From: an uncultured Bacteroidota bacterium
GTDB lineage: Bacteria > Bacteroidota > Bacteroidia > Flavobacteriales > Flavobacteriaceae
Reading direction: 5' to 3'
Assembly (NCBI GenBank): GCA_902535165.1
Contig: CACASE010000004.1
Coordinates: 1 to 64,000 of the forward strand
DNA: 64,000 nt
Shown here piece by piece: positions 11,543-37,997 of this stretch. The notes below the pieces were generated by a model. That model ran no database searches, was not told the origin of the DNA, and saw only the letters and a program-made list of their open reading frames with translations. Every line of letters starts with the position of its first letter. Within the stretch, counting starts at the first letter, position 1. The position numbers and the translations under genes are program-made.

Positions 11543-13648
11543 ATGAAAATTAATTTTTTACATATTACCTTTTTTGTAGCAATAATTATTTTTGGTTTTT
11601 CTTTTTCTAACAAGAAGTTTTCGGATCCTAATAAAGAAAAGTTACTAATTGAAGTTGTGAAATATGTTGTTGAAAAAGGCCATTATAATTCAATTGAGAT
11701 TGATGATGGTATCTCTGAAAAAATCTTTAATTCTTACATCGAGCAGTTAGATAATCAAAAAAGATTTTTTCTACAATCTGATATAAGACAGTTTGAAAAG
11801 TACAAATTCAAACTTGATGATCAATTAAAAGATCATGATTTAACTTTCTTCGACTTAGTTTTTCAGATATCAAGAGAAAGGATTGACGAAGTGAAAGATT
11901 ATTATTACGATATCATGGAAAAAGGGTTTGATTTTTCATCAGATGAAAATATTGACTTAGATTTTGAAAATAAGTCATTTGCAAGAAGTAAAAATGAGAT
12001 TAAAAATAGGTGGAGAAAACAGTTAAAGTATTCTACGCTTGATATTCTTACTTTAAAGTTAGGCGATTCAATTAAAATAATTGATAATAAAACACTCAAT
12101 GAGTCAATGTCTTTAATTAAAAAAAATACTGAAGATTTCTTTGATTATGTAAGTGAAATGGATAGAGATGATTGGTTTGCAAATTATATTAATGCTTTTT
12201 TAAATCAACTAGATCCACACACAGTTTATTTCAATCCTGATGACAAAGATAGGTTTGATACTAATATATCTGGAAAATTTAATGGTATTGGAGCTAGATT
12301 ACAAAAAACCGAAGGTGCTGTCAAAATAGTTGATATTATAGTTGGAGGGCCTATTTGGAAAGATAAGTTGTTAGATATAGGTGACATTATTTTAAAGGTT
12401 GCTCAAGAAAATGAAGATCCAGTTGATATTATTGGTATGAATTTAGATGACGCGATTAAATTAATTAAAGGTCCGGCAGATTCTGTTGTAAAGCTAACCG
12501 TAAAGAAAATAGACGGCGAAATCAAGGATGTCTCAATAAAAAGAGGTCTTGTTGAGCTTGAAGAACTATATGCAAAATCAACATTGATAAGTAAGAATAA
12601 TAAAAATTATGGATATATAAGCCTACCAAAATTTTATGTTGATTTTTCAGATAAAAACAGTAGGAATTCAGCAAATGATGTTAAAAATGAAATAATAAAA
12701 TTAAAAAATAACGGAATCAAAGGTTTAATTCTAGATTTGAGAAATAACGGCGGTGGAGCTCTCCAAACTGTTGTTGACATGACAGGGCTTTTCATTGAAA
12801 GAGGGCCAATAGTTCAGGTAAAGTCTACTGGTAATAGAAAACAAATTTTGTATGATAAAGACCCAAAAATAGTATGGGACGGACCTTTAGTAATATTGAT
12901 GAATAAAATGTCAGCATCTGCATCTGAAATCCTTGCTGGCGCACTTCAAGACTATAATAGGGCAGTTATTATTGGTAATGAAAAATCATTTGGTAAAGGA
13001 ACAGTTCAAAACGTAATTGATTTAAACAGATTTATTTCTAATACCTCCTATGATTTAGGGGCTATTAAAATAACAACAGATAAATTTTATAGGATAAATG
13101 GAGAGTCAGTTCAGCTCGAGGGAGTAAAAAGTGATATAGTAATTCCAGATTCATATAAATATGTATTTAATGGAGAAAAAGATGAAAAAAACCCACTTGA
13201 TTGGGATAAAATTACACCTGCCAACTTCCAAAAATGGAACCAAAAAGATATAGTTACAAAAATCTCCACAAATAGTCAGTCTAGAATTGATAATGATAAT
13301 TATTATAGCTTAATTAATGATAGGGCAAAATGGATCAAATCTCAACAATCCAATAAGAGTATTTCTTTAAATTTTGATATTTATAATAATTATTTGAGTG
13401 ACCAAAGAGAGAAAAATAAAAAATTTGAAAGTCTTTCAAAATATGAAAACAATCTAATATTTAAATTATTAAAAACTGAAAAGCAATATGTAATGTCTAA
13501 CAAGGAGCTTTTAAGTAGTAGAAATAGATGGCATAGAAATTTAACTAAAGACTTATATGTAGAGGAGGGGGTAAAGGCCCTTGAAATGTTATCTGCTTTA
13601 AGTGAAAATAATCTTATTTTAGCAGATAATGACAAAAAACTAAATTGA
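11543..13648 (+). CDS. prc: Carboxy-terminal processing protease (Prc/Tsp, S41)
   Basis: A 701-residue periplasmic serine protease. A signal peptide or anchor is at residues 4-21; an N-terminal helical region with DPHTVYF near residue 225 leads into a PDZ domain (about 240-330, with GDIILKVAQ) and the S41 core. The catalytic Ser/Lys pair is Ser459 in SASASEILAGAL and Lys485 in SFGKGTVQ. The C-terminal DUF3340-like extension makes it the long Tsp type. It degrades or trims exported proteins from their C-termini. The ABC permease gene overlaps its stop codon. Confidence 0.95.
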   Translation: MKINFLHITFFVAIIIFGFSFSNKKFSDPNKEKLLIEVVKYVVEKGHYNSIEIDDGISEKIFNSYIEQLDNQKRFFLQSDIRQFEKYKFKLDDQLKDHDLTFFDLVFQISRERIDEVKDYYYDIMEKGFDFSSDENIDLDFENKSFARSKNEIKNRWRKQLKYSTLDILTLKLGDSIKIIDNKTLNESMSLIKKNTEDFFDYVSEMDRDDWFANYINAFLNQLDPHTVYFNPDDKDRFDTNISGKFNGIGARLQKTEGAVKIVDIIVGGPIWKDKLLDIGDIILKVAQENEDPVDIIGMNLDDAIKLIKGPADSVVKLTVKKIDGEIKDVSIKRGLVELEELYAKSTLISKNNKNYGYISLPKFYVDFSDKNSRNSANDVKNEIIKLKNNGIKGLILDLRNNGGGALQTVVDMTGLFIERGPIVQVKSTGNRKQILYDKDPKIVWDGPLVILMNKMSASASEILAGALQDYNRAVIIGNEKSFGKGTVQNVIDLNRFISNTSYDLGAIKITTDKFYRINGESVQLEGVKSDIVIPDSYKYVFNGEKDEKNPLDWDKITPANFQKWNQKDIVTKISTNSQSRIDNDNYYSLINDRAKWIKSQQSNKSISLNFDIYNNYLSDQREKNKKFESLSKYENNLIFKLLKTEKQYVMSNKELLSSRNRWHRNLTKDLYVEEGVKALEMLSALSENNLILADNDKKLN

Positions 13649-25265: not shown

Positions 25266-26487
25266 ATTGTTTAATTTTTCTGTATAAAGTTCGTTCAGAA
25301 ATACCTAATTCTTTGGCTGCAGCTTTTCTTCTACCATTGTTTCTCTCAAGTGCTTTTATAATTAATTCAAGCTCTTTGTCTTGAAGGGATAAAGTTTCTT
25401 CCTCGTTTATCTCCTCTGCAAAGGAATACTTATCATTTTTATGTTCAAAATTATCTTCTAATAGACTATCATTTTCATCATTAGAGTTTTCCATTTCATT
25501 AAATTTTCTAGGTAATAAACTTTGTATATCATCAATTTTTTCAGAATCAGTTGAATTTGATTTTTTTATATTGCTTGTCAATTTTTTTAATTCATTCAAA
25601 TCTCTTTTCATATCAAAAAGAATTTTGTATAAAATTTCTCTTTCGGATGAAAAATCATTTTCACTTTTATTTTTAGAAATTAATGCTGGTAAGTTATTTT
25701 TTGGATCTGGTAAATATGATGAAATCATTTCACCATTGATTGCTCTTTCTTTTTCTAAAACTGATAATTGCTCAGTGATATTTTTTAGTTGTCTAATATT
25801 ACCATTCCAGTTGTAATTTTTTAAAATTCTTTGTGCATCGTCATCAAGTCTTACAGTTGGCATATTATATTTTTTTGCAAAGTCTGATGCAAATTTTCTA
25901 AACAATAATATAATATCCGTGTTTCTTTCTCTAAGTGGCGGAATTTTTATTTCAACCGTGCTCAATCTGTAAAAAAGATCTTCTCTAAATTTACCCTTCG
26001 AAATTGCATCGTCCATATTTAAATTTGTTGCTGCAACAATTCTCACATTAGTTTTTTGAACTTTAGATGATCCAACTTTAATGAATTCACCATTTTCTAA
26101 AACTCTTAACAGTCTAACTTGAGTAGTAAGCGGTAATTCACCTACCTCGTCTAAGAAAATTGTCCCTCCATCAGCAACTTCAAAATAACCTGATCTTGTT
26201 GATGTAGCTCCAGTAAAAGCACCTTTTTCATGTCCAAAAAGCTCAGAGTCAATTGTACCTTCAGGAATTGCTCCACAGTTAACAGCAATAAATTTATTAT
26301 GTTTTCTGTGGGAAAGTTGATGAATGATTTTGGGAAATACCTCTTTCCCAACACCACTTTCACCAGCAACTAAAACTGTTATGTCAGTAGGTGAAACTCT
26401 AACTGCTTTTTCAATTGCCCTGTCTAATCCAGAGTGATTTCCTATTATTTCAAATCTTTGTTTAATATTTTGAATTTCTGTATTCAC
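25249..26487 (-). CDS. Sigma-54-dependent activator without a sensor domain
   Basis: A 412-residue bacterial enhancer-binding protein. The AAA+ core starts almost at residue 1: Walker A GESGVGKE (42-49), the sigma-54-contacting GAFTGA loop (89-94), Walker B GGTIFLDE (107-114). A poorly conserved acidic, low-complexity stretch (about 270-365) leads to a Fis-type helix-turn-helix at the C-terminus (NGRRKAAAKELGISERTLYRK). There is no receiver, GAF or PAS domain, so control must be by another protein or by abundance, as in PspF. It overlaps miaB by four bases and lptE by 17. The linked groESL promoter region is a candidate target. Confidence 0.95.
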   Translation of the reverse strand: MNTEIQNIKQRFEIIGNHSGLDRAIEKAVRVSPTDITVLVAGESGVGKEVFPKIIHQLSHRKHNKFIAVNCGAIPEGTIDSELFGHEKGAFTGATSTRSGYFEVADGGTIFLDEVGELPLTTQVRLLRVLENGEFIKVGSSKVQKTNVRIVAATNLNMDDAISKGKFREDLFYRLSTVEIKIPPLRERNTDIILLFRKFASDFAKKYNMPTVRLDDDAQRILKNYNWNGNIRQLKNITEQLSVLEKERAINGEMISSYLPDPKNNLPALISKNKSENDFSSEREILYKILFDMKRDLNELKKLTSNIKKSNSTDSEKIDDIQSLLPRKFNEMENSNDENDSLLEDNFEHKNDKYSFAEEINEEETLSLQDKELELIIKALERNNGRRKAAAKELGISERTLYRKIKQYDLEL

Positions 26488-27911
26488 CTTTCTTTTATTT
26501 TAAAACCCTTACCAATTAGAGTTGTAGAGGTATTATTTAATATTCTGACTTTAGCATAATCTCCAATTTTAAAATCATCTTTTGGGAAGACTACCATTAT
26601 ATTTTGAGGATTTCTGCCACACCAGTATTCTTTTGATTTTTTGGATTCTTTCTCAATTAAAACATTTGAATATTTATTGATGTAATTTGATAAATTTTCA
26701 AAGCTGTGTTTTAGTTGAAGATCAATGATTTCACTCAAACGCCTTTGTTTAACTTCTTCTGGAACATTATCATCAAACTTTCTCGCGGCTAATGTGCCAG
26801 GCCTTTCAGAGTATTTAAACATAAAACCAAAGTCATATTTAACTTTATTCATTAAACTTATTGTATTTAAATGATCATTTTCTGTTTCATCAGGAAATCC
26901 ACAAATCATATCATGTGAAATTCCACAATCGGGTAATAATTTTTTAATTTTTTTAACAAGACTTAAATACTCATCTGAGCTATGTTTTCTATTCATTTTT
27001 TTTAAAATTTTATCACTCCCTGACTGGACTGGTAAATGTATGTGATTACAAATATTATTATGTTTTGCCATTGTTTCTAGAACAGCATCATCAATATCTT
27101 GTGGGTTAGAAGTTGTAAAACGAATTCTTGTTTTTGTAAAGTTTTTAGCTACAAGGTCTAATAATTTTGAAAAGTTAATAGATGTTTTTCTTTGAATTTC
27201 AGACGCTTTATCATAATCTTTTTTTAATCCACCTCCATACCATAAATAACTGTCAACATTTTGTCCTAATAAAGTCACTTCTTTATATCCATTATTAACC
27301 AATTCATCAATTTCATTTAAAATACTTTTTGGATCTCTGCTTCTTTCTCTTCCTCTGGTAAAAGGAACAATACAAAATGTACACATATTGTCACATCCCC
27401 TGGTTATAGAAACAAAGGCATTAATTCCATTAGTGTTAAATCTACTAGGATTTATATCAGCGTAAGTTTCCTCCTTAGATAATAATACATTCACAGCATC
27501 GTTGCCAAATTCGATTTCTTTTAAAAGATTTGGAATATCTCTGTAAGCATCGGGACCGACAACCAGATCAACAATTTTTTCTTCATCGAGAAATTTTTCT
27601 TTTAATCTTTCAGCCATGCAGCCTAATACTCCCACCTTTAAATTTTTGTTGATTTTTTTTATGGAATTAATACTTTCTAATTTTTTTCTGACGGTTTGTT
27701 CTGCTTTTTCTCGAATTGAGCATGTATTTATTAATACAAGTTCAGAATTATTAATATTATCTGAATAAGAATAACCAATTGATTCTAGAATAGAAGCAAC
27801 AACTTCAGAATCAGAAACATTCATTTGACAACCATAGGAAATAATAGAGAATTTTTTAGAGTTAGAAATTATCTTTTTTTTCTTATTTAGCTCGAGAGTT
27901 TTTGATAACAT
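26484..27911 (-). CDS. miaB: tRNA-2-methylthio-N6-dimethylallyladenosine synthase MiaB
   Basis: A 475-residue radical-SAM methylthiotransferase modifying A37 of tRNAs that read UNN codons. The N-terminal UPF0004 domain holds cluster cysteines in SYGCQMN, INTCSIRE and VLGCMAE. The radical-SAM domain has RGCDNMCTFCIVPFTRGRERSR, and a TRAM domain closes the protein. I start at ATG 27911; the 13 extra upstream codons read into the promoter region. It heads the long operon with the activator, lptE and secG and is divergent from topA. Confidence 0.97.
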   Translation of the reverse strand: MLSKTLELNKKKKIISNSKKFSIISYGCQMNVSDSEVVASILESIGYSYSDNINNSELVLINTCSIREKAEQTVRKKLESINSIKKINKNLKVGVLGCMAERLKEKFLDEEKIVDLVVGPDAYRDIPNLLKEIEFGNDAVNVLLSKEETYADINPSRFNTNGINAFVSITRGCDNMCTFCIVPFTRGRERSRDPKSILNEIDELVNNGYKEVTLLGQNVDSYLWYGGGLKKDYDKASEIQRKTSINFSKLLDLVAKNFTKTRIRFTTSNPQDIDDAVLETMAKHNNICNHIHLPVQSGSDKILKKMNRKHSSDEYLSLVKKIKKLLPDCGISHDMICGFPDETENDHLNTISLMNKVKYDFGFMFKYSERPGTLAARKFDDNVPEEVKQRRLSEIIDLQLKHSFENLSNYINKYSNVLIEKESKKSKEYWCGRNPQNIMVVFPKDDFKIGDYAKVRILNNTSTTLIGKGFKIKER

Positions 27912-27928
27912 TTTCTTGATTACAAACG

Positions 27929-28060
27929 CAAATATATAAAAACCTGTCAAAATGTCGTGTCACAATTTTAATTATGGCTTTACTATTGTAAATACTTAAA
28001 AAATTCATGTCTGACATTTGTACTAAAATTTTTTTTTAAAAAAAACGTATACATTTGTCA
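27929..28060. promoter_or_regulatory. Divergent miaB/topA promoter region with TGTCA/TGACA sites
   Basis: TAnnTTTG boxes face both ways: TATATTTG on the minus strand (27936-27929, 17 bases before miaB) and TACATTTG on the plus strand (28050-28057, 19 bases before topA). Neither has a well-placed TTG. Between and around them are TGTCA at 27945, 27958 and 28056 and the perfect palindrome ATGTC-T-GACAT at 28007-28017. Confidence 0.45.
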
Positions 28061-28076: not shown

Positions 28077-30524
28077 ATGTCAAAGAATTTAGTTATCGTT
28101 GAATCTCCTGCTAAAGCTAAAACTATTGAAAAATTTTTAGGTAGTGACTTTAAAGTAGTTTCAAGTAATGGTCATATTGCAGATCTCCCATCCAATGAGC
28201 TTGGTATAGACTTAGAAAACAATTACAGTCCGAAATACAAAATTTCAACAGATAAAAAAGACTTGGTTAAAAAATTGAAGAACCAGCTCAAAAATGTTGA
28301 GACTGTTTGGTTAGCAAGTGATGAGGATCGGGAGGGTGAAGCAATTGCATGGCATCTTGCAGAGAACTTAAAACTGGATGAATCTAAAACAAAAAGAATT
28401 GTTTTTAGAGAAATTACAGAGAAAGCAATTAGAAGCGCAATTGAAAATCCAAGAGAAATAAATAAGTCATTAGTAGATGCTCAGCAGGCGCGCAGAGTAT
28501 TAGACAGATTAGTTGGGTATAAAATCTCCCCCATACTTTGGAGAAAAGTTAAAGGTGGTCTTTCAGCAGGAAGAGTTCAATCAGTTGCTCTAAGATTAGT
28601 TGCAGAAAGGGAAAAAGAGATTATAAATTTTGTCCCAGAAAGTTATTTTAAAACATTAGGACAATTTAGTAAATCAGATAATAGCATTTTTAATGCAAAG
28701 TATTCCAAAAATATCGATGAAGATCAAAAATTTAATGAATTTTTAGACGGATTTATTAATGCAAAATTTTTTGTTGAAACTGTTGAAAAGAAACCAATTT
28801 TAAGAAAACCATCTGCTCCTTTTACAACTTCTACATTACAACAGGAAGCCTCTAGAAAGCTGGGATTTAATGTGGCAAGAACAATGCAAGCTGCTCAAAA
28901 ACTCTATGAAGCCGGTCATATAACTTACATGAGGACGGATAGTAATACTTTATCTGAAATTGCAACTAAATCAATTGCTGAAGTTATATCAATGAATTAT
29001 GGCAATCAGTATTCAAAAACAAGAATTTACTCGACAAAAAGTAAAAATGCTCAACAAGCTCATGAGGCGGTAAGGCCTACAAACTTTTCAAATAAGGTTC
29101 TTAATTTGGATTCGGATCAAACTAACTTATATAATTTAATTTGGAAAAGAACTGTTGCTAGTCAAATGTCTGATGCAATATTAGATAAAACCATTGTTAA
29201 GATCAATTCAAATAATCATGATGGTATTTTTCAATCTGAGGGAGAAGTAATAAAATTTGACGGCTTTTTAAAATTGTATCAAGAAACAAAGGATAACGTT
29301 GTTCTAGATGAATCAAAAAATAATATTTTACCAAACTTTAATGAAGGTGAGGAGATTAATAAAATTAAAATTTCAGTAACACAATCCTTTTCTAAAGCAC
29401 CATTCAGATTTTCTGAAGCGACATTAGTTAAAAAAATGGAGGAGTTAGGTATTGGAAGACCATCAACATATGCCCCCACAATTAGTACTGTAATGAATAG
29501 AAAATATGTCTTCAAAGGGACAAATAATGCTAAAACCAGACAAATTGTTCAATACAACATAAGTGATGAAATAATAAAAGAAACCAAAATCGAAAATTTT
29601 GGATCAAATAAAGGTAAGTTGGTACCTAGTGAGGTTGGAATTTTGGTTAATGAGTTTTTAACAAATAATTTCAAAAATATTATAGATTATAACTTTACAG
29701 CAAATGTTGAAAATGAATTTGATTTAATAGCTAATGGTTCAAAAGATTGGAAATCAATTATTAATAAATTTTATGAGCCATTTAGCTTAGTAATTGAAGA
29801 CGTTCAAAAAAATGCTAAAAGAGAAACAGGTGAACGTATTCTTGGTACTGACCCAAAAACAGGAAGACAATTAAGTGTAAAGCTTGGTAAGTATGGTCCA
29901 ATTGCTCAAATTGGTAAAGTTGATGAAGAGGAAAAGCCCATATTTGCTAGCCTTTTGCCTGAACAACAAATAAGCACTATTTCAGTTGAGGATGCATTAA
30001 AGTTATTTGAACTACCTGTTTACGTTGGAGATTATGAAAATGAGAAAGTTGAAGCTAATATAGGTAGGTATGGACCTTACATTCGTTACGATAAAATTTT
30101 TATACCTATTCCTGAGGGATTTAACCCTTTTACTGTAACACTAGACAAGTCAATTGAATTAATTGAAGCAAAAAAAGCTGCTCAAAAGCCTATAATTACT
30201 TATAAATCACATGATGTTACAAAGGGAAGAGGAAGATTTGGACCATATCTAAAATGGAATAATACATTTATTAATGTTAACAATAAATATGATTTTGATA
30301 GTCTAACGGAGCAAGATTGCATTGAATTAATTGAGGATAAAATAAAAAAAGACAAAGAAAAAATTCTTGTAAACTGGGAATCTGATCAAATTACAATTGA
30401 AAAAGGTAGGTGGGGTAAAATTTATGTAATTAAGGGGAAAAAAAGAGTTCCACTATCTAAAAACGTCGATCCTCTGAAAATATCAATAAGCGATGCAAAG
30501 GATATTTTAAAAATAAAGAAATAA
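28077..30524 (+). CDS. topA: DNA topoisomerase I
   Basis: An 815-residue type IA topoisomerase that relaxes negative supercoils. The TOPRIM domain begins KNLVIVESPAKAKTIEKFLG and contains the acidic motif SDEDREGEAIAWHL. The catalytic tyrosine is Tyr284 in HITYMRTDSN. The C-terminal third has repeated GRYGPYI-type modules (for example KLGKYGPIAQIG, ANIGRYGPYIRY, GRGRFGPYLKW) instead of Cys4 zinc fingers, as in other Bacteroidota. It is followed after seven bases by the arginase-fold gene and then gldKLMN. Confidence 0.98.
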   Translation: MSKNLVIVESPAKAKTIEKFLGSDFKVVSSNGHIADLPSNELGIDLENNYSPKYKISTDKKDLVKKLKNQLKNVETVWLASDEDREGEAIAWHLAENLKLDESKTKRIVFREITEKAIRSAIENPREINKSLVDAQQARRVLDRLVGYKISPILWRKVKGGLSAGRVQSVALRLVAEREKEIINFVPESYFKTLGQFSKSDNSIFNAKYSKNIDEDQKFNEFLDGFINAKFFVETVEKKPILRKPSAPFTTSTLQQEASRKLGFNVARTMQAAQKLYEAGHITYMRTDSNTLSEIATKSIAEVISMNYGNQYSKTRIYSTKSKNAQQAHEAVRPTNFSNKVLNLDSDQTNLYNLIWKRTVASQMSDAILDKTIVKINSNNHDGIFQSEGEVIKFDGFLKLYQETKDNVVLDESKNNILPNFNEGEEINKIKISVTQSFSKAPFRFSEATLVKKMEELGIGRPSTYAPTISTVMNRKYVFKGTNNAKTRQIVQYNISDEIIKETKIENFGSNKGKLVPSEVGILVNEFLTNNFKNIIDYNFTANVENEFDLIANGSKDWKSIINKFYEPFSLVIEDVQKNAKRETGERILGTDPKTGRQLSVKLGKYGPIAQIGKVDEEEKPIFASLLPEQQISTISVEDALKLFELPVYVGDYENEKVEANIGRYGPYIRYDKIFIPIPEGFNPFTVTLDKSIELIEAKKAAQKPIITYKSHDVTKGRGRFGPYLKWNNTFINVNNKYDFDSLTEQDCIELIEDKIKKDKEKILVNWESDQITIEKGRWGKIYVIKGKKRVPLSKNVDPLKISISDAKDILKIKK

Positions 30525-30531
30525 TACAGTT

Positions 30532-31659
30532 TTGTTTTCAGAATATTTTAATCCCGTTAATATCGAAATAATTGATTATGCAGATAATTTAGATAATAAT
30601 CAATTAGGTAGTAAATTAAAAATTAATGGTCGTGACAACTTAAATTTCTTTGATGATTTAGATGTTGTAATTTTTTCAATTAATGAATATAGATTCAATT
30701 CAAGTATTCAAAAGTCATTTAATGCTAACAAAGACTTTAGAAAAAAACTTTATTCTTTGTACTATGGTAATTGGGATTTAAATATTTATGACTTTGGAGA
30801 TTTAGAAAATGGAAATGAAATATCAGATACTCAATTTGCTCTAGAGAAAGTTTTGGAATTTTTTTCAAAAAATCAAATTCTTGTTCTTACAATTGGTGGA
30901 TCTCAAAACTTGTTGTATAGTTTATATTCCTCTTTGAAACAATCTTTACAAAAAATAAATTTAGTCTCTGTTGATAATAAAATCGACTTTTCTGAAAATA
31001 ATGAATCCTTTCTTTCTAAAATTATTATGGATGATGATAACAAGTTGGATAATTTTTCAAATATTGGTTTTCAAAAACATTTATCATCTGTTCCTGAAAA
31101 TAAATTTATTGATAAAATGTATTTTGAATCAATTAATTTGGGAAATATTAAGGCCAATATAAATGAAGCTGAACCTGTGTTAAGAGATTCTAATATTGTG
31201 TCTTTTAATATTGATTCTGTGAAATCTGGAGACCTAAATAATGCTCACCAGTATCCAAATGGACTGAATTCTTATGAATTGTGTTCATTATCAAGATTTT
31301 CTGGTTTAAGTTCAAGAATTAAGATTGTTTCCTTTTTAGAGAATTGGGATTTATCAATTATGAATTCTTTACTTGCTGAATCTCTTTGGTACGTTTTAGA
31401 TGGTTATTCAACAAGAGTTGATGAAAACCCCCTTGATGATAGCAATGATTTTATATATTATCATGTTGAATTGGATAATTATAAATTTAAGTTTTACAGG
31501 AGTAAATTCTCTGATAGATGGTGGGTAGAATTTTTGAATGATGAATTAATTACTATTAAAAAAGATATAATTTCTTGCACATTAAATGACTATAATAATT
31601 GTAGAAATTCGGTGATTCCCGATAGAATATTAAGAAGATTAAAAAATAAAATAACTTGA
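30532..31659 (+). CDS. Arginase/formimidoylglutamase-fold protein, probably inactive
   Basis: A 375-residue protein with the layout of the ureohydrolase family but with eroded metal sites. Where active enzymes have GGGH it has GGSQ (122-125). For DAHxD it has DNKID (148-152), and for SxDxD it has SFNID (224-228). Thus three of six manganese ligands (two His, one Asp) are missing. An extra C-terminal 70-80 residues (from FIYYHVELDN) is outside the fold. Related genes sit between topA and gldK in other flavobacteria, usually labelled formimidoylglutamase. A structural or regulatory role linked to type IX secretion is inferred. Start is TTG, seven bases after topA. Confidence 0.75.
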   Translation: MFSEYFNPVNIEIIDYADNLDNNQLGSKLKINGRDNLNFFDDLDVVIFSINEYRFNSSIQKSFNANKDFRKKLYSLYYGNWDLNIYDFGDLENGNEISDTQFALEKVLEFFSKNQILVLTIGGSQNLLYSLYSSLKQSLQKINLVSVDNKIDFSENNESFLSKIIMDDDNKLDNFSNIGFQKHLSSVPENKFIDKMYFESINLGNIKANINEAEPVLRDSNIVSFNIDSVKSGDLNNAHQYPNGLNSYELCSLSRFSGLSSRIKIVSFLENWDLSIMNSLLAESLWYVLDGYSTRVDENPLDDSNDFIYYHVELDNYKFKFYRSKFSDRWWVEFLNDELITIKKDIISCTLNDYNNCRNSVIPDRILRRLKNKIT

Positions 31660-31661
31660 AT

Positions 31662-31703
31662 TTGATTCAAAAGTGTTATTTTAGGGCACAACTTTTGATT
31701 CAA
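31662..31703. repeat. Two TTGATTCAA sites 33 bases apart before gldK
   Basis: TTGATTCAA, itself a nine-base palindrome, occurs at 31662-31670 and 31695-31703. The spacing is 33 bases, about three helical turns. The flanks make a larger imperfect inverted repeat (TTGATTCAAAAGT against ACTTTTGATTCAA, one mismatch). The region lies 15 bases before the gldK ATG and could be an operator pair or leader hairpin. Confidence 0.55.
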
Positions 31704-31717
31704 TTTAGCTAACAACT

Positions 31718-33127
31718 ATGAAAAAAAGGTTTTTAATATTGATATTATTATGCTTTATCTACTCTTGTTCAAACAATGATAGAGGAGAGTTAGTAGGTGT
31801 TAAAGCGAGTAAGTTTTTCTCCGATAAGCCGCACGGTATGGTATTAGTCCCTTCAGGCTCATTTACAATGGGTCCATCTAACCCCAGTGCTGTGCTTGAT
31901 CAAAACCCTTCCGTTAAAACTGTTTCTGTTAAAGCTTTTTATATGGATGAGACAGAAATTACAAATAGTGAGTACAGGCAATTTGTAAATTGGGTTAGGG
32001 ATTCCGTCGTAAGAACAGAACTTGCTGTAGCTGCATATTATAAAATAGGTGAAGATAATTCTGAGGATGACCCTCTTTGGGATTTTATGCCTTTATATAA
32101 TAGGTCAGATGACGGTGAAGAAAAGACTGCTTATCAACTTTATTTAGAGGAAAATGGTCTTGGAGAGCTCGATATCGAAAACAAGAATACTTACAAACTA
32201 AATTGGGATACTAAAATTCCATGGGAAAGATCAGATTATCTAGATGCAAATTATGCTGCGGTTTTGGAAGGAGGTATAGGTCCTGACCTACTTGAAGATT
32301 ATGAAGGATTTTTTAAACCTGCCGATTCTACGCCAAATGGTTTAAGAGCTTTTAAGACAAAAAGAATTAAATATAATTACAGAGAATTTGATTCAAAGAA
32401 TAACAAGTGGAGTGAATTTAAAGAAATTGAAGTGTACCCAGACACTACTGTTTGGTACAAAGATTTTTCTTACAGTTATAATGAGCCAATGCATAATGAT
32501 TACTTTTGGCATGATGCGTATGCAGAATATCCTGTAGTTGGTGTATCATGGGAACAAGCAAAAGCTTTTGCTCACTGGAGAACCTTTTATAAAAATCAAC
32601 ATCAAAGAAAAGCTAGAAAAAATATTAATCTAGTAAGTGATTACAGATTGCCAACTGAAACCGAATGGGAATATGCTGCTAGAGGTGGTCTAGAAAGGGC
32701 TGAGTTTCCTTGGGGCGGACCATACACATATGATGATAGTGGATGTTTTCTTGCAAATTTTAAACCCGAAAGAGGTGATTACATTGCTGATCAAATATTA
32801 TATACTGCTGAAGCTGAATCGTATTGGCCTAATGATTATGGTTTATATAATATGTCAGGAAATGTTTCTGAATGGACCGACTCCAATTATGAAAAAGCAT
32901 CAAATGATTTCGTTGCGGGTCTAAATCCTACAATCGAGGGCGTGGAGGAGAATGAGTTTAAAGTTGTTAGAGGGGGTTCATGGAAGGATGTCGCTCATTT
33001 TTTAAAGGTTTCGACGAGAGATTATGAGAACAAAGCAAGAAAGAGATCTTATATTGGATTTAGAACGGTTCAAAGTTATTTAGGAGAGGATGTTGGTTTT
33101 CAAGAAAATCCAAATAAAATATTTTAA
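31718..33127 (+). CDS. gldK: Type IX secretion/gliding lipoprotein GldK
   Basis: A 469-residue lipoprotein (lipobox FIYSC, Cys17) with a formylglycine-generating-enzyme-like fold: MVLVPSGSFTMGPSNP, FYMDETEITNSEYRQFVNW, YRLPTETEWEYAARGG, NVSEWTDSNY, VVRGGSWKDV and YIGFRTVQ. In the type IX system GldK/PorK forms the periplasmic ring with GldN/PorN beneath the outer membrane. Identification as GldK rather than GldJ rests on its place directly before gldL, gldM and gldN. Confidence 0.95.
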   Translation: MKKRFLILILLCFIYSCSNNDRGELVGVKASKFFSDKPHGMVLVPSGSFTMGPSNPSAVLDQNPSVKTVSVKAFYMDETEITNSEYRQFVNWVRDSVVRTELAVAAYYKIGEDNSEDDPLWDFMPLYNRSDDGEEKTAYQLYLEENGLGELDIENKNTYKLNWDTKIPWERSDYLDANYAAVLEGGIGPDLLEDYEGFFKPADSTPNGLRAFKTKRIKYNYREFDSKNNKWSEFKEIEVYPDTTVWYKDFSYSYNEPMHNDYFWHDAYAEYPVVGVSWEQAKAFAHWRTFYKNQHQRKARKNINLVSDYRLPTETEWEYAARGGLERAEFPWGGPYTYDDSGCFLANFKPERGDYIADQILYTAEAESYWPNDYGLYNMSGNVSEWTDSNYEKASNDFVAGLNPTIEGVEENEFKVVRGGSWKDVAHFLKVSTRDYENKARKRSYIGFRTVQSYLGEDVGFQENPNKIF

Positions 33128-33152: not shown

Positions 33153-33722
33153 ATGAAAAAACAATTATTACCAGATAACGTATTTGAGTTGCTATTTGGA
33201 GTAGGTGCAGGTGTTGTAATCATTGGTGCCTTACTAAAAATTATAAATGGGTCATTAATATTTTCAGCAAATACTTGGCTAATTGTTGGGCTATCAGTTG
33301 AGGCAGGAATTTTTGTTTTGTCCGGTATTCAAGGATTTTTACTTGGTAAAAAAGAAGAAGATGATGATGTGGTGAGTACAATTGAAGTAGAGACAGCTGC
33401 TTTACAAAAAGCTGTTGATGGAACTGTCAGAGGTCTTTCAGAACTTAATTCTAATATTTCTAATGCATCAAAAGCTGCTGCAACGATAAAAGTCCCTACT
33501 GATATGGAAAAAAATGCTGAAGATTTCAACCAAGGGTTATCATCTGCTTCTTCTAATATAAAAGAAGTTGCTAAGGTTCTTCACAACTTGAAAGAAACTG
33601 TTGCTGCTTTTGAAACTGTTAATATGCCTGAAGGTCTTGGTGATGAGTTCCAAAAGATGAAAAATACTGTTAAAGAGCTTAACGCTAAGTATGAAGCTAT
33701 GCTTGGTGCAATGAACAAGTAG
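33153..33722 (+). CDS. gldL: Type IX secretion motor subunit GldL
   Basis: A 189-residue inner-membrane protein with two N-terminal transmembrane helices (about 11-30 and 41-62) and a cytoplasmic, partly coiled-coil tail. Glu50 in GLSVEAGIF corresponds by position to the intramembrane glutamate known to be needed for proton-driven GldLM rotation in Flavobacterium johnsoniae. The tail is shorter than in many relatives. It lies between gldK (25-base gap) and gldM (4-base gap) and forms the motor with GldM. Confidence 0.94.
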   Translation: MKKQLLPDNVFELLFGVGAGVVIIGALLKIINGSLIFSANTWLIVGLSVEAGIFVLSGIQGFLLGKKEEDDDVVSTIEVETAALQKAVDGTVRGLSELNSNISNASKAAATIKVPTDMEKNAEDFNQGLSSASSNIKEVAKVLHNLKETVAAFETVNMPEGLGDEFQKMKNTVKELNAKYEAMLGAMNK

Positions 33723-33726
33723 TAAT

Positions 33727-35433
33727 ATGGCTGGGTCATCAGGAAAACAAACAAGAAGTCAAAAACTTCGTCAAAATATGATAAACATGATGTACCTCGT
33801 GTTTATTGCCATGCTTGCTCTTCAAATCAGTAAAGAGGTTTTAGCTACTTTAGGAATTTTGAGTGAAGACATGGAAAAATCTACTGCTGAGCTTCAATTT
33901 TCTATAGACAGTGCATACAATATTATTGATCAAAATAGTAATCAGGATTATTACAAAATCCCATCGGAAGAACTTCCAAAATTGAAAGAAATTACTGATG
34001 ATTATTTTAATTTCATCCAAGATTTAAAGGATTCTTTAATTGGAATTGATGAGAATAATTACATGATTGAAGTTGAATATTTAGATGAAGATGGAAATGA
34101 AAAAATTAGTGAAAGAAGAGATTATCAAGTAATGGATAAAAGTAATTATCTGGATGAACTTTTCTTTGTAAATGATGGTGTTACTGCTAAAGGTTCAGAA
34201 TTCATTGAATATTTTAAGGGATTTTCAGGAAAAGTCGAATCAGTTTTAGATTCTATTAGAGAGAGAGATTCAAGAACAGTGCAATCTAATTACGGTTTTT
34301 CATCAGCACTATCAAATCTTTCACTTAGATTTGATTATCCAGATGATGATCAAGTTGTAAACCGAGATGGAATTAAAGAGGACTGGATTTACTATAATTA
34401 CGAAAAATTTCCCCTTGTTGCTTCACTCTCAAAATTTACTAAGATTCAATCCGATATTAGATCCGTGGAATATGAAATTCTCAATTCTCTCGTTAGTAAA
34501 ACTAAAGATCGTCAATTAAGTTTTGATTCTAAAAGTACATTGCTTGAAACTGATAAGCAAGCATACTATACAAATAGTACGGTAGATGCTAAAGTAGTTG
34601 TTGGAAACACTGATTCAAGCTTCAAACCTGACAGAGTTGATTTAAAGGTCGATAATATACAGTTAAAAGATTCTGAATTTGAAGTTGTTGATGGTAAGAT
34701 TAAATTGAACAAAAGATTTTCATCTCCAGGAATTAAAAAAATCTATGGTTATTTGTTTTTTGATAATAATGGAAATACAGATAGTCTTTTAGTAGATACT
34801 CAATTTTATGTAATCCCAAAACCTAATGAAGCAATAGTATCACCTGTTAATATGCAGGTTTTTTACATAGGTTTAAGAAATGAAATTGCTGTTGCTTTCC
34901 CTGGAATAGCTGATTTGACATCAATTAGAGTAAATGGTAAAAATGGTACTATTTTAAAATCTGGATCTAGATATTTTGCAGCTCCTAATGCTGGTGTTGA
35001 AAGTATGGATGTAATCGTTTCTGGTAAAGCTAATGATGAAGTTGTTACCAGTTTAGTAAACTTTAGAGTTGAAGATGCTCCACCTGGAAGAGGATCAGTG
35101 TTTGAAAGAGTTGGTGGCCAAGATTATAATTTTGTCAATAGTGATAAAATTTCAAAAGAATCGTTACTTTATGGTCTTATTAGAGGTGAGAAACCACCAG
35201 GATTTTTGTATGATTATGATATAAATGTTGAATCATTTCAGGTTACTGTTGGTAACTTACCAACGAGAACTGTACAAGGAAATAAAATTCAGAATAGTAG
35301 TGAAGCAGTAAGAGATATTAACGGAGCAAATAGAGGGTCAAGTGTAACTGTTACAGTGCTAGAAGCTGTTAAAATTGATGGAGATTTAAAATCACCAACT
35401 AATGTTGAACCATTTGTAGTAACAATTGAATAA
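33727..35433 (+). CDS. gldM: Type IX secretion motor subunit GldM
   Basis: A 568-residue protein with one transmembrane helix near residues 17-39 (NMMYLVFIAMLALQISKEV), preceded by a short basic cytoplasmic tail, and a long periplasmic region of several beta-rich domains. The block VNMQVFYIGLRNEIAVAFPGI and a C-terminal domain with GGQDYNFVN fit the periplasmic GldM/PorM domains that reach the GldKN ring. GldM transmits motor torque through the periplasm. The gldN ATG follows one base after its stop. Confidence 0.96.
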   Translation: MAGSSGKQTRSQKLRQNMINMMYLVFIAMLALQISKEVLATLGILSEDMEKSTAELQFSIDSAYNIIDQNSNQDYYKIPSEELPKLKEITDDYFNFIQDLKDSLIGIDENNYMIEVEYLDEDGNEKISERRDYQVMDKSNYLDELFFVNDGVTAKGSEFIEYFKGFSGKVESVLDSIRERDSRTVQSNYGFSSALSNLSLRFDYPDDDQVVNRDGIKEDWIYYNYEKFPLVASLSKFTKIQSDIRSVEYEILNSLVSKTKDRQLSFDSKSTLLETDKQAYYTNSTVDAKVVVGNTDSSFKPDRVDLKVDNIQLKDSEFEVVDGKIKLNKRFSSPGIKKIYGYLFFDNNGNTDSLLVDTQFYVIPKPNEAIVSPVNMQVFYIGLRNEIAVAFPGIADLTSIRVNGKNGTILKSGSRYFAAPNAGVESMDVIVSGKANDEVVTSLVNFRVEDAPPGRGSVFERVGGQDYNFVNSDKISKESLLYGLIRGEKPPGFLYDYDINVESFQVTVGNLPTRTVQGNKIQNSSEAVRDINGANRGSSVTVTVLEAVKIDGDLKSPTNVEPFVVTIE

Positions 35434-35434
35434 A

Positions 35435-36295
35435 ATGAAAAAACTAATTTTCTCTTTACTATCTGTCTTGCTTGCACATAATTATTCATTCGCGCAGGCT
35501 AATTTACTTAATGCAAAAAAACCCTCAGATATTGCTATTGCAACAATGAATATAGATAAAGGATCAATTGATTATCCTGAAGTTGAAGATAGTGATATAC
35601 TTTGGTCAAAGGTTGTTTATGAATTTATTGACCTTAATGAAAAACTTAATTTTCAATTGTTATTTCCTGTTAACGATGATCAGTATACTTTGACTAGAAA
35701 ATCACTCTGGAAGATTATCAAAGAAAATGTAGAAAATGGCAATATAAATGAAGTTTTTGATGTTAGAAATGATAATTTTCTTGAAGCCAATAAGATTACT
35801 GGTCTTAATAAAATCAAAGATTTCTATGGAAGTAAATTTACACCTGGTGATTCTAGACCTCAAACTTACGCAAGTTCTTCTGATATAAGTGGTTATAAAA
35901 TTAAAGGTGTTTGGTTTTTTGACAAAAAACACTCGGAGATGAAATATAGACTTTTAGGTATTCAACCTTTTGGAAGAAATTTAAAGGAATCTGGCAAAGA
36001 ACAGGGATATTTTTGGATTTGGTATCCATCAATCAGAGATATTCTTAGTAATCACTTAGTTTTTAATGACAAAAATAATAATAATAGAATTTCCTTTGAT
36101 GACCTTCTTGTTAACAGAAGATTTAGCTCTTACATCTATAAATATGATAATGTTTATGGTGATAGAACTATCAGAGATTATATAAGACAAAGAAGCGGTG
36201 AGTCTAATAGACAATATCAATTGAGATTAATCATGGAGTCTGAAAGAATAAAAAAAGAAATTTTAGACTTTGATGTTGATATGTGGGGATACTAA
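35435..36295 (+). CDS. gldN: Type IX secretion ring protein GldN
   Basis: A 286-residue secreted periplasmic protein with signal peptide MKKLIFSLLSVLLAHNYSFAQ. The body has the GldN/PorN signatures DILWSKVVYEFIDLNEKLNFQLLFP, YKIKGVWFFDKKHSEMKYRLLGIQPF and WIWYPSIRDILSNHLVFN. It partners GldK in the periplasmic ring. I use the ATG at 35435, which starts the signal peptide; a TTG three codons earlier overlaps gldM. It ends the gldKLMN set, and an 82-base gap without a clear terminator follows. Confidence 0.96.
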   Translation: MKKLIFSLLSVLLAHNYSFAQANLLNAKKPSDIAIATMNIDKGSIDYPEVEDSDILWSKVVYEFIDLNEKLNFQLLFPVNDDQYTLTRKSLWKIIKENVENGNINEVFDVRNDNFLEANKITGLNKIKDFYGSKFTPGDSRPQTYASSSDISGYKIKGVWFFDKKHSEMKYRLLGIQPFGRNLKESGKEQGYFWIWYPSIRDILSNHLVFNDKNNNNRISFDDLLVNRRFSSYIYKYDNVYGDRTIRDYIRQRSGESNRQYQLRLIMESERIKKEILDFDVDMWGY

Positions 36296-36377: not shown

Positions 36378-36929
36378 ATGAAGAATATATTTATTTTATT
36401 CGTGCTTACACTAATTATTGCATGTCAAGCACCATTACCTAGTTTAGTCAGTGATGAAAACAAAGCTAAATTTGAGCAACAAATAGAAGCTTGGAATACA
36501 TATACTACAGGATTTTTAAATGAGGATATTGATCAGGTAATGAGTGTGATGTCTGATACTCTGCAATGGAGTCCTCCTCAATATAATGGAAATACACTTT
36601 TAGGATATGAAGATGCTAAATCCCAAATCCTTGAATATTTTGAAAACTTTGAAGATATAACCTTTAATCCAGCTGAAGGATTAATAGGATCTGATTATGC
36701 ATATTGGTCTGGTTCTTTATATTCTGAAGGCGAAACCAATACTGAACCCAATGTAATGAGGATATATGGAACTTGGACCTCAGTTCATTCTCCAACAGGT
36801 GCAAAAACTGGAACTAAATGGTATGGTGTATTAAACTTTAACGATGATAATAAGATTGCAACCTTTTCTGATTGGATGGATGTTAATGGTATTCAAGTTC
36901 AAATAGAAAACTTTGTTAATAACAATTAA
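36378..36929 (+). CDS. NTF2-like (SnoaL-type) lipoprotein, copy 1
   Basis: A 183-residue lipoprotein (lipobox IIACQAP, Cys16). The rest looks like a cone-shaped NTF2/SnoaL domain: an N-terminal helix (QIEAWNTYTTGFLNEDIDQVMSVM), LQWSPPQYNG, and aromatic strands ending KIATFSDWMDVNGI. Such folds often bind small hydrophobic ligands or act as subunits; no catalytic set can be named. It is the first and most divergent of three tandem related genes behind gldN. Function unknown. Confidence 0.75.
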   Translation: MKNIFILFVLTLIIACQAPLPSLVSDENKAKFEQQIEAWNTYTTGFLNEDIDQVMSVMSDTLQWSPPQYNGNTLLGYEDAKSQILEYFENFEDITFNPAEGLIGSDYAYWSGSLYSEGETNTEPNVMRIYGTWTSVHSPTGAKTGTKWYGVLNFNDDNKIATFSDWMDVNGIQVQIENFVNNN

Positions 36930-36941
36930 AAACTAAAAATT

Positions 36942-37445
36942 ATGAAAAAATTAATATTAATATTTATAGCAGCTGTATTTATTGGCTGCTCATCAACAGG
37001 TGTTCAAGTGACATTTGATGATGAAAAATCAAATGCGATTAAAGCTGCCTATGATGGCTATCTTGCAAATGATTATAGTTGGGCTGAGACTTTATATTCA
37101 CCTGATATTGCTGTTCATATTAACAATGTTGATGCTATCGATCTTGACGCTAATGTAGCTGGGTTGGCATCTCATCATGAATTGTTTAGTAATATTTCAA
37201 TGTCTCATCCTAGCGGAGGTGACGCATTTGTTCAAACTACTAACTATAATGATGATACTGGTATTTGGTCAAATGCTTGGTTCATTTGGAAGGGAACTGG
37301 AAAAGTTACTGGAGTTACAATCGAAGTTCCATGTCATGTAGCATATCAGTGGAACGACGAGGGTCAAATTACTCAAACATGGTTATTTAGTGATCAAGCT
37401 CCTCTTTTAGCTGAGGTTAACGCAGCACAAGCTGTAGCAGAATAA
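36942..37445 (+). CDS. NTF2-like lipoprotein, copy 2
   Basis: A 167-residue lipoprotein (lipobox FIGCSST, Cys16), 12 bases after copy 1. After TGVQVTFDDEKSNAIKAAYDGYLANDYSWAETLY it has the short NTF2-like pattern ending HVAYQWNDEGQITQTWLFSDQ. Its signal peptide and first 25 mature residues are nearly the same as in copy 3, at both DNA and protein level, which indicates tandem duplication. Function unknown. Confidence 0.75.
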   Translation: MKKLILIFIAAVFIGCSSTGVQVTFDDEKSNAIKAAYDGYLANDYSWAETLYSPDIAVHINNVDAIDLDANVAGLASHHELFSNISMSHPSGGDAFVQTTNYNDDTGIWSNAWFIWKGTGKVTGVTIEVPCHVAYQWNDEGQITQTWLFSDQAPLLAEVNAAQAVAE

Positions 37446-37463
37446 ATAAAAAACTCTAATAAT

Positions 37464-37997
37464 ATGAAAAAAATAATACTAATCTTTATAACATCATTAT
37501 TTATTGGATGTTCACCCACAGGTGTTCAAGTAACATTTGATGATGAAAATTCAAATACAATCAGAGAACATTTACAACATTATGTAGATGGCGATATTGA
37601 TTCAATGATGTCAATAATTGCAGATGATGCTGAGATTTACATAAATAGTCAAGAATCAGTTTCAGCTAGCGATGTTAGGGCAATACATGAACTTGAACAT
37701 TCAATTTTTAATGGGATTTCAACATCTTGGTCTCAGGAAGAAGGTGGAAATGATATTGGTGCTTGGGTTGAGTCTACAAATTATCCAGCTGGACCAGCAA
37801 ATGAACCTGCATCTGTAACACAAGCATGGTTCACATGGAACGGTACATCAAGTTCAACTGGTGATTCTTTGTCTATTCCAGTCCATGTTGTTTATTCTTG
37901 GAACAATGAAAATCAAGTTCAGACTATATATCAATTTTTCGATTCTATTAATGCTACTGCTGTTATTGAGGCTTCTCTAGCTGCTACTAGTGAATAA
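37464..37997 (+). CDS. NTF2-like lipoprotein, copy 3
   Basis: A 177-residue lipoprotein (lipobox FIGCSPT, Cys16), 18 bases after copy 2. It shares the start STGVQ/PTGVQ plus VTFDDE with copy 2, then diverges, but keeps the fold pattern (HYVDGDIDSMMSIIADDAEIYIN, IPVHVVYSWNNENQVQTIYQFFDS). A strong terminator follows, so the three genes probably end one transcript. Function unknown. Confidence 0.75.
   Translation: MKKIILIFITSLFIGCSPTGVQVTFDDENSNTIREHLQHYVDGDIDSMMSIIADDAEIYINSQESVSASDVRAIHELEHSIFNGISTSWSQEEGGNDIGAWVESTNYPAGPANEPASVTQAWFTWNGTSSSTGDSLSIPVHVVYSWNNENQVQTIYQFFDSINATAVIEASLAATSE

Follow-up and report, generated by a model that had tools for sequence, protein, structure and literature searches.

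A putative pseudo-ureohydrolase encoded between topA and gldK in the Bacteroidia

Active ureohydrolases carry six metal ligands, namely a His (H1), a DxHxD motif (D1, H2 and D2) and a DxD motif (D3 and D4). In rat arginase I, the first metal is bound by H1, D1, D2 and D3 and the second by H2, D1, D3 and D4, H2 and D4 being specific to the second metal. Formimidoylglutamase (HutG; TIGR01227; PDB entries 4mxr from T. cruzi and 3m1r from B. subtilis) provides both the best NCBIfam model and the best solved fold for the protein described here. Going by its PDB records (4rhi, 4rhk and 4rhm), the arginase-like protein of T. brucei has the ureohydrolase fold without the metal cluster. MetCb, according to PMC11271267 and the entries 8snf, 8ryi and 8x3g, is a metal-free subunit of metformin hydrolase, an inactive member of the ureohydrolase family that acts as a binding partner.

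We analysed a stretch of 64,000 nucleotides (the window) from an uncultured member of the Flavobacteriaceae (contig CACASE010000004.1), which carries at 30532..31659, on the forward strand, a gene with a TTG start for a protein of 375 amino acids (gene and product are both designated ARG below). The first-pass annotation had taken ARG for an arginase-fold pseudoenzyme beside the genes for the type IX secretion system (T9SS), with the fold reused for a non-enzymatic role tied to secretion or gliding. The reading that we prefer, and to which we would give roughly an even chance, is that ARG may be a pseudoenzyme of ancient origin within the ureohydrolase superfamily, non-hydrolytic and with a function not confined to the T9SS. 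Literature searches combining gldK, T9SS or gliding with arginase or formiminoglutamase retrieved no discussion of ARG in the papers that they covered.

Fold, C-terminal domain and spread of the ARG family

The AlphaFold2 model of the window protein, predicted together with 60 Flavobacterium relatives, had a mean pLDDT of 82.0 and a pTM of 0.87; the alignments for structure prediction used 60 (A3) and 43 (A4) of the 80 Flavobacterium loci. Residues 21-297 of the model (30592..31422, forward strand) aligned best with T. cruzi formiminoglutamase (4mxr_A; VIA-align Z 29.4, rmsd 2.4, 264 residues), followed by B. subtilis formimidoylglutamase and the metformin hydrolases, and Foldseek assigned the arginase-type alpha/beta fold of ureohydrolases to the model with an E value of 2.8e-13. 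The fold named in the first-pass annotation was thus recovered.

The same annotation had noted an extra C-terminal region of about 70 residues, which turned out to be a domain of ~78 residues (298-375; 31423..31656, forward strand) with the signature FYKS..RWW...PC..DY..A....P.RW. The domain is missing from 28 other ureohydrolases used as comparators, apart from stray aligned letters, and out-of-class profile matches stop by position 317 of 385 among the matches listed. Predicted alone, the C-terminal 79 residues (297-375) gave a pLDDT of 82.3 and a pTM of 0.72, with four strands and two helices. Foldseek found no solved structure for the domain at E 0.001 (best 0.46), VIA-align nothing over Z 4.1, and none of five C-terminal pieces matched Pfam at its cut-off. 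The domain is specific to the ARG family and has no clear Pfam or PDB match, albeit this is not proof of a new fold. Some of the positions best conserved in the family lie within it. In three genomes of family f5, the profile match was restricted to the C-terminal half (G210, 196-378; G301, 177-378; G305, 172-383), indicating that constraint there exceeds that on the metal core, and the FYKS..RWW motif is retained in two loci of the same family (L075 and L076). These observations suggest that it is the C-terminal half that matters.

The window protein scored 21.9 bits (E 1.4e-4) against Pfam PF00491, the gathering cut-off of which is 22 bits, and 23.8 bits against TIGR01227, the cut-off of which is 229. 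Five relatives gave TIGR01227 scores of 50.7-98.2 bits, and none of the six tested members reached the cut-off; the nearest comparators (L078, L081, L224 and L230) also remained below it, at 162-211 bits. We rejected the identification of ARG as HutG because the scores fall far below the cut-off and the ligands are lost. Nevertheless, ARG is probably read at present as an enzyme of histidine degradation. A Flavobacteriaceae genome with formiminoglutamase in which the other steps of histidine degradation were undetected is reported in PMC11278836, and this pattern would fit such a misreading. Correct naming of ARG would remove a false metabolic prediction, and would flag a conserved gene with a new domain.

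The ARG family is wider than the first-pass annotation supposed, and is present in most sampled members of the class. ARG was found in 146 of 149 genomes of the window genome's own family (124 of 124 near-complete ones) and in 278 of 295 genomes of the class (239 of 252 near-complete ones). Outside the class, a single-protein search gave five weak matches, and the ureohydrolases retrieved by a profile search lack the C-terminal part. A tree built from 28 of 85 aligned family members and the 28 comparators separated the ARG family from the comparators by a branch supported at 100/100, with its sister group supported at no more than 75/56.

Two records deserve separate mention. A Flavobacterium-type copy of ARG, with 72% identity to the query's first sequence, occurs in a metagenome bin titled Bifidobacterium breve (L131), which is probably misnamed. 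An out-of-class agmatinase-like protein (L236 of G181, 312-1196) has three of the six metal ligands in the alignment, and is perhaps another degenerate ureohydrolase.

The metal site

Ligands were counted in an alignment of 85 members of the family, made up of 45 rows of A1 and 40 loci, with the 28 comparators, which had been chosen from profile matches (20 of the many from one profile search and 8 others); L075, L076 and L077, being truncated or highly diverged, were excluded from the 85. The window protein reads GGSQ at H1 (Q125, 30904..30906), D148-N-K150-I-D152 at the DxHxD site (30973..30987) and S-F-N226-I-D228 at the SxDxD site (N226-I-D228, 31207..31215; all on the forward strand). H1 is therefore changed to Gln, H2 to Lys and D3 to Asn, while D1, D2 and D4 are retained, and the three altered ligands out of six agree with the first reading of these sites. 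The only match of the window protein in a phmmer search against PDB was a weak one (3nio, E 0.94), the alignment of which pairs GGSQ with GGDH and VDNKID with VDAHAD.

The ligand sites were scored across aligned homologues, a check that the first-pass annotation had proposed, and the full set was found in none of the 85 members, which keep one (4 members), two (3), three (62) or at most four (16) ligands, whereas the comparators keep six (22), five (5) or three (1). H1 is Gln in 63, His in 12 and Asn in 7 members, and His in 24 and Asn in 4 comparators. At H2, Lys or Arg stands in 47 members and His in 5, against His in 27 of the 28 comparators. D1 is retained in 83 members, D2 in 77, D3 in 80 and D4 in 3; the usual state, D3 kept and D4 lost, is reversed in the window protein, and members from family f2 have lost D1 and D2 too. 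On the arginase I assignment, the second metal site would be gone and the first reduced to its acids. The 80 Flavobacterium loci carry the same motifs, with GG[ST]QD in 79, and this agreement with the 85-member count indicates that the alteration is old and family-wide. We accordingly rejected the idea that ligand loss is a decay limited to the AT-rich, reduced window genome.

A changed H1 by itself would be weak evidence of inactivity, because Asn occupies the site in 4 of the 28 comparators and because PDB entry 4myn is titled as the N114H variant of T. cruzi formiminoglutamase. Other positions also set the family apart. All 85 members have E214 and R218, which are unconserved in the comparators, W286, W330 and C349 are invariant across the family, and at the position of R54 (30691..30693, forward strand) 81 of the 85 members have Arg, whereas 19 of the 28 comparators have Glu. 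Q181 is present in all 85 members and also in 17 of 28 comparators.

The residues retained in the pocket raise the possibility that ARG is still an enzyme, whose remodelled site, with one metal or none, would employ D1, D2, D3, Q125 and Q181, together with E270 in many members, to carry out a different reaction. D1, D2, D3 and Q181 are more conserved than the pocket of a dead site needs to be, which counts against a pseudoenzyme; E270 is kept in 65 members and four ligands in sixteen, and the T. cruzi formiminoglutamase is, by its PDB title, deposited with Mn2+2 although N114 was changed to His in the variant. Nevertheless, an enzyme is difficult to reconcile with the rarity of His at H2 and Asp at D4, with the absence of E270 from 20 members including Flavobacterium-type ones, with the additional losses in f2, and with the three f5 genomes in which the entire core match is lacking. 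We regard a remaining enzymatic activity as unlikely.

With its fold kept and its binuclear ligands lost, ARG has the character of a putative metal-free ureohydrolase pseudoenzyme, which is the reading we prefer. The family is of single origin in the tree and has its binuclear metal site dismantled: most members retain D1, D2 and D3, the Asp residues chiefly serving the first metal, Gln generally replaces the first His, and the second-metal ligands H2 and D4 have almost always gone. The basic side chains of K/R150, and possibly that of R54, may replace the charge of the metal. The old pocket would then serve as a structural core and not as a hydrolytic site, and the working surface would consist of the C-terminal domain and the region around E214 and R218. 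ARG, in which no signal sequence was seen by eye, is presumably cytosolic and may act through binding a partner.

Gene order and co-occurrence with the T9SS

In the window, topA (28077..30524; TIGR01051, 675.8 bits), ARG and the genes gldK (31718..33127; TIGR03525, 506.8 bits, cut-off 350), gldL (33153..33722), gldM (33727..35433; TIGR03517, 229 bits, cut-off 180) and gldN (35426..36295; TIGR03523, 207.5 bits, cut-off 85.9) all lie on the forward strand. ARG starts 7 bases past topA and ends 58 bases short of gldK, and a promoter and terminator scan of 30400-31900 detected no terminator-like site. As ARG adjoins both topA and gldK, polar effects in mutants of the gldK region are worth a look. 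Divergent from topA, at 26484..27950 on the reverse strand, is a gene that we take to be miaB-like from its sequence, and we used it as an unrelated-neighbour control.

The GldL of the window is short (189 amino acids) and falls below the cut-off of TIGR03513 (44.8 bits against 68.3); the match is mainly N-terminal, and Pfam GldL_N gave 45.8 bits. After gldN, three small tandem genes (36378-37997) have lipoprotein-like starts, those of the second and third being closely similar, and two of the three show weak SnoaL-like matches below the Pfam cut-off.

Homologues had been said to precede gldK in other flavobacteria, and this holds for the window genome's own family and for a large part of the class, not for all of it; an unconserved gene order, which the first-pass annotation had named as a refutation, is thus half borne out, the order being kept in that family and lost in several others. 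In 77 of 80 Flavobacterium loci, ARG is flanked by topA and gldK, and the remaining 3 meet a contig end on one side. Of 96 genomes listed for both genes, out of the 295 of the class, 79 carry gldK no more than 2.5 kb downstream of ARG in the same orientation, 13 have it on another contig and 4 far away on the same contig. The order topA-ARG-porP-gldK, mostly with gldL, gldM and gldN next, was found in many families, in most of 40 loci, which were picked mainly from gldK-linked cases, so that the order counts are biased. The porP gene, identified by NCBIfam in two loci and by similarity elsewhere, does not stand between ARG and gldK in the window genome's own family. In contrast to these families, 13 loci of f3, f4, f8 and f9 have no topA, porP or gldK near ARG on the same strand. 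We found no common partner among the neighbours of ARG in these families, which include redoxins, an epimerase and RmuC in f3, ferredoxin/NAD domains in f8, a D-Ala-D-Ala carboxypeptidase or DegT aminotransferase in f4, and an AMP-binding or SIS-domain protein in f9.

ARG is tightly coupled to topA: in almost every linked locus the end of topA is no more than ~270 bases away, and the two open reading frames are often in contact. Where the block is broken, ARG remains with topA in three loci (L071, L184 and L217; in L071, of f2, topA adjoins ARG and gldK does not) and with gldK in three others (L062, L187 and L203). ARG might hence be a partner of topoisomerase I or of another housekeeping process through coupling to topA, and branch rates in 30 loci with all seven genes lean the same way for the pair ARG and TopA (raw 0.89; residual 0.26, p 0.054). 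In the same test, the residual rates of ARG against GldK, GldL, GldM and GldN ranged from -0.12 to -0.41, none being positive, and those among the Gld genes themselves from -0.03 to 0.12. Because covariation is missing even among the Gld genes, the test has low power, which weakens the TopA value and also means that a link to the T9SS is not excluded by it. As topA is moreover unlinked in the f3, f4, f8 and f9 loci, we consider a role tied to topoisomerase I highly improbable.

A second recurrent neighbourhood places murF near ARG in four loci, two from f5 (L075 and L076) and two from f93 (L195 and L216), with gldJ close by in L075 (tested), in L195 and, by score only, in L076. ARG and murF are convergent in all four and cannot form an operon. 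In another genome of the window genome's own family (G128, locus L086), we noticed gldJ (11965-13638; 772.6 bits) directly beyond topA, giving the order gldJ-topA-ARG-gldKLMN.

The recurrence of ARG near gld genes favours an alternative in which ARG is a dedicated cytosolic factor of the T9SS or gliding motor, for example through binding to the cytoplasmic tail of GldL, or as an aid to the regulation or assembly of the GldLM motor. This alternative draws on the linkage to gldK, on the topA-ARG-porP-gldKLMN order across many families, and on gldJ in the murF neighbourhood and in G128. The convergence of ARG and murF and the f3, f4, f8 and f9 loci, in which no T9SS gene is nearby, speak against it, and the miaB-like gene shows linkage of the same kind, with 36 of 47 topA-ARG loci carrying it no more than 5.3 kb away and divergent from topA. 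The miaB gene is not known to be tied to secretion, and its being kept in the same block makes conserved position weak evidence of a function shared with the T9SS. The gldK neighbourhood of ARG is part of an inherited block of miaB, topA, ARG, porP and gldKLMN.

The occurrence of the genes bears on the same alternative. Among 252 near-complete genomes of the class, ARG is absent from 13 and GldN from 8; 236 have both, 5 neither, 8 only GldN and 3 only ARG. After two of the last three had been read as assembly gaps, the co-occurrence was significant by Fisher's test (p 9e-7), kinship being ignored in this value. The five double-negatives comprise three genomes from f11 and two others, of 0.5 and 1.2 Mb, that are strongly reduced, and the correlation is thus not independent; T9SS-bearing members of f11 (G585 and G611) lack ARG as well. 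Three genomes of the window genome's own family without ARG and GldN (G051, G065 and G083) are uninformative because they are 88% complete and the two genes are linked.

A core component of the T9SS should be present with the system and absent without it, and ARG dissociates from it in both directions. On one side, the eight genomes with GldN and without ARG (G332, G391, G453, G530, G550, G585, G611 and G634) carry SprA without exception, and GldM is missing only from G550; some of them may hold over-diverged or unassembled copies of ARG, G453 and G550 being fragmented. On the other side, ARG was found without GldN in G489, G522 and G659. We rejected G489 as a counterexample, as it has at least 150 sorting domains, and G522, as it has SprA and a partial GldM; both were read as assembly gaps. 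G659, by contrast, is 99% complete, lacks GldM, GldN and SprA, and has one sorting domain; its match to the GldK model is weak (4.5e-27, against 1.8e-113 in the congener G150) and GldK was counted as lacking, yet its ARG is full-length with R54, Q181 and E270. The congener G724 has SprA, indicating that the loss in G659 is recent, and it may be too recent for ARG to have decayed, which tells against independence from the T9SS.

G150 itself lacks SprA and has GldK, GldM, GldN and ARG, so that in this family genes of the motor can persist after the translocon has gone. Besides G659, SprA was unmatched in 5 of 61 f3 genomes (G150, G738, G706, G725 and G705), both sampled genomes of the f3 genus g426 being among these.

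With the eight genomes, G659 and the dependence among the double-negatives against it, and with a rate test that does not join ARG to the Gld genes, albeit at low power, we regard a dedicated T9SS or motor factor as possible but not probable. It is attractive to speculate further that ARG is an unrecognised cytosolic pseudo-ureohydrolase of the Bacteroidia whose new C-terminal domain links the T9SS or gliding motor at its inner face, for instance at the cytoplasmic tail of GldL, to cell physiology. If this doubtful proposal were true, ARG would be the missing cytoplasmic regulator of the rotary secretion motor, masked by a metabolic annotation. As for the first-pass annotation, a non-enzymatic reuse of the fold seems the natural reading of the sequences, and the tie to secretion is only partly supported, the miaB control and the two-way dissociation speaking against it.

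Comparison with known systems

ARG shares a gene block with GldK, GldL, GldM, GldN and PorP, but it has no relation to them in sequence or fold and its presence dissociates from theirs in both directions. In comparison with HutG, ARG is far below the family cut-off, has lost the metal site and carries the extra C-terminal domain.

Pseudoenzymes conserved throughout a class are good cases for studying how the fold of an enzyme turns into a binding module. MetCb, as presented in PMC11271267, is a precedent for a non-catalytic use of the fold such as we propose for ARG. MetCb needs an active paralogue, whereas a PF00491 search of the window genome (82% complete) gave no match at E 0.001, and hence no active partner of the ureohydrolase family was seen in it.

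The arginase-like protein of T. brucei resembles ARG in having the fold without the metal cluster. The title of its mutant entry, S149D/R151H/S153D/S226D, implies by spacing that the native protein carries Arg in place of H2 and Ser in place of D4, and these replacements are also the commonest ones in the ARG family. The title further implies the absence of D1 and D2, which the ARG family keeps, and the two are distant in sequence (12-13%).
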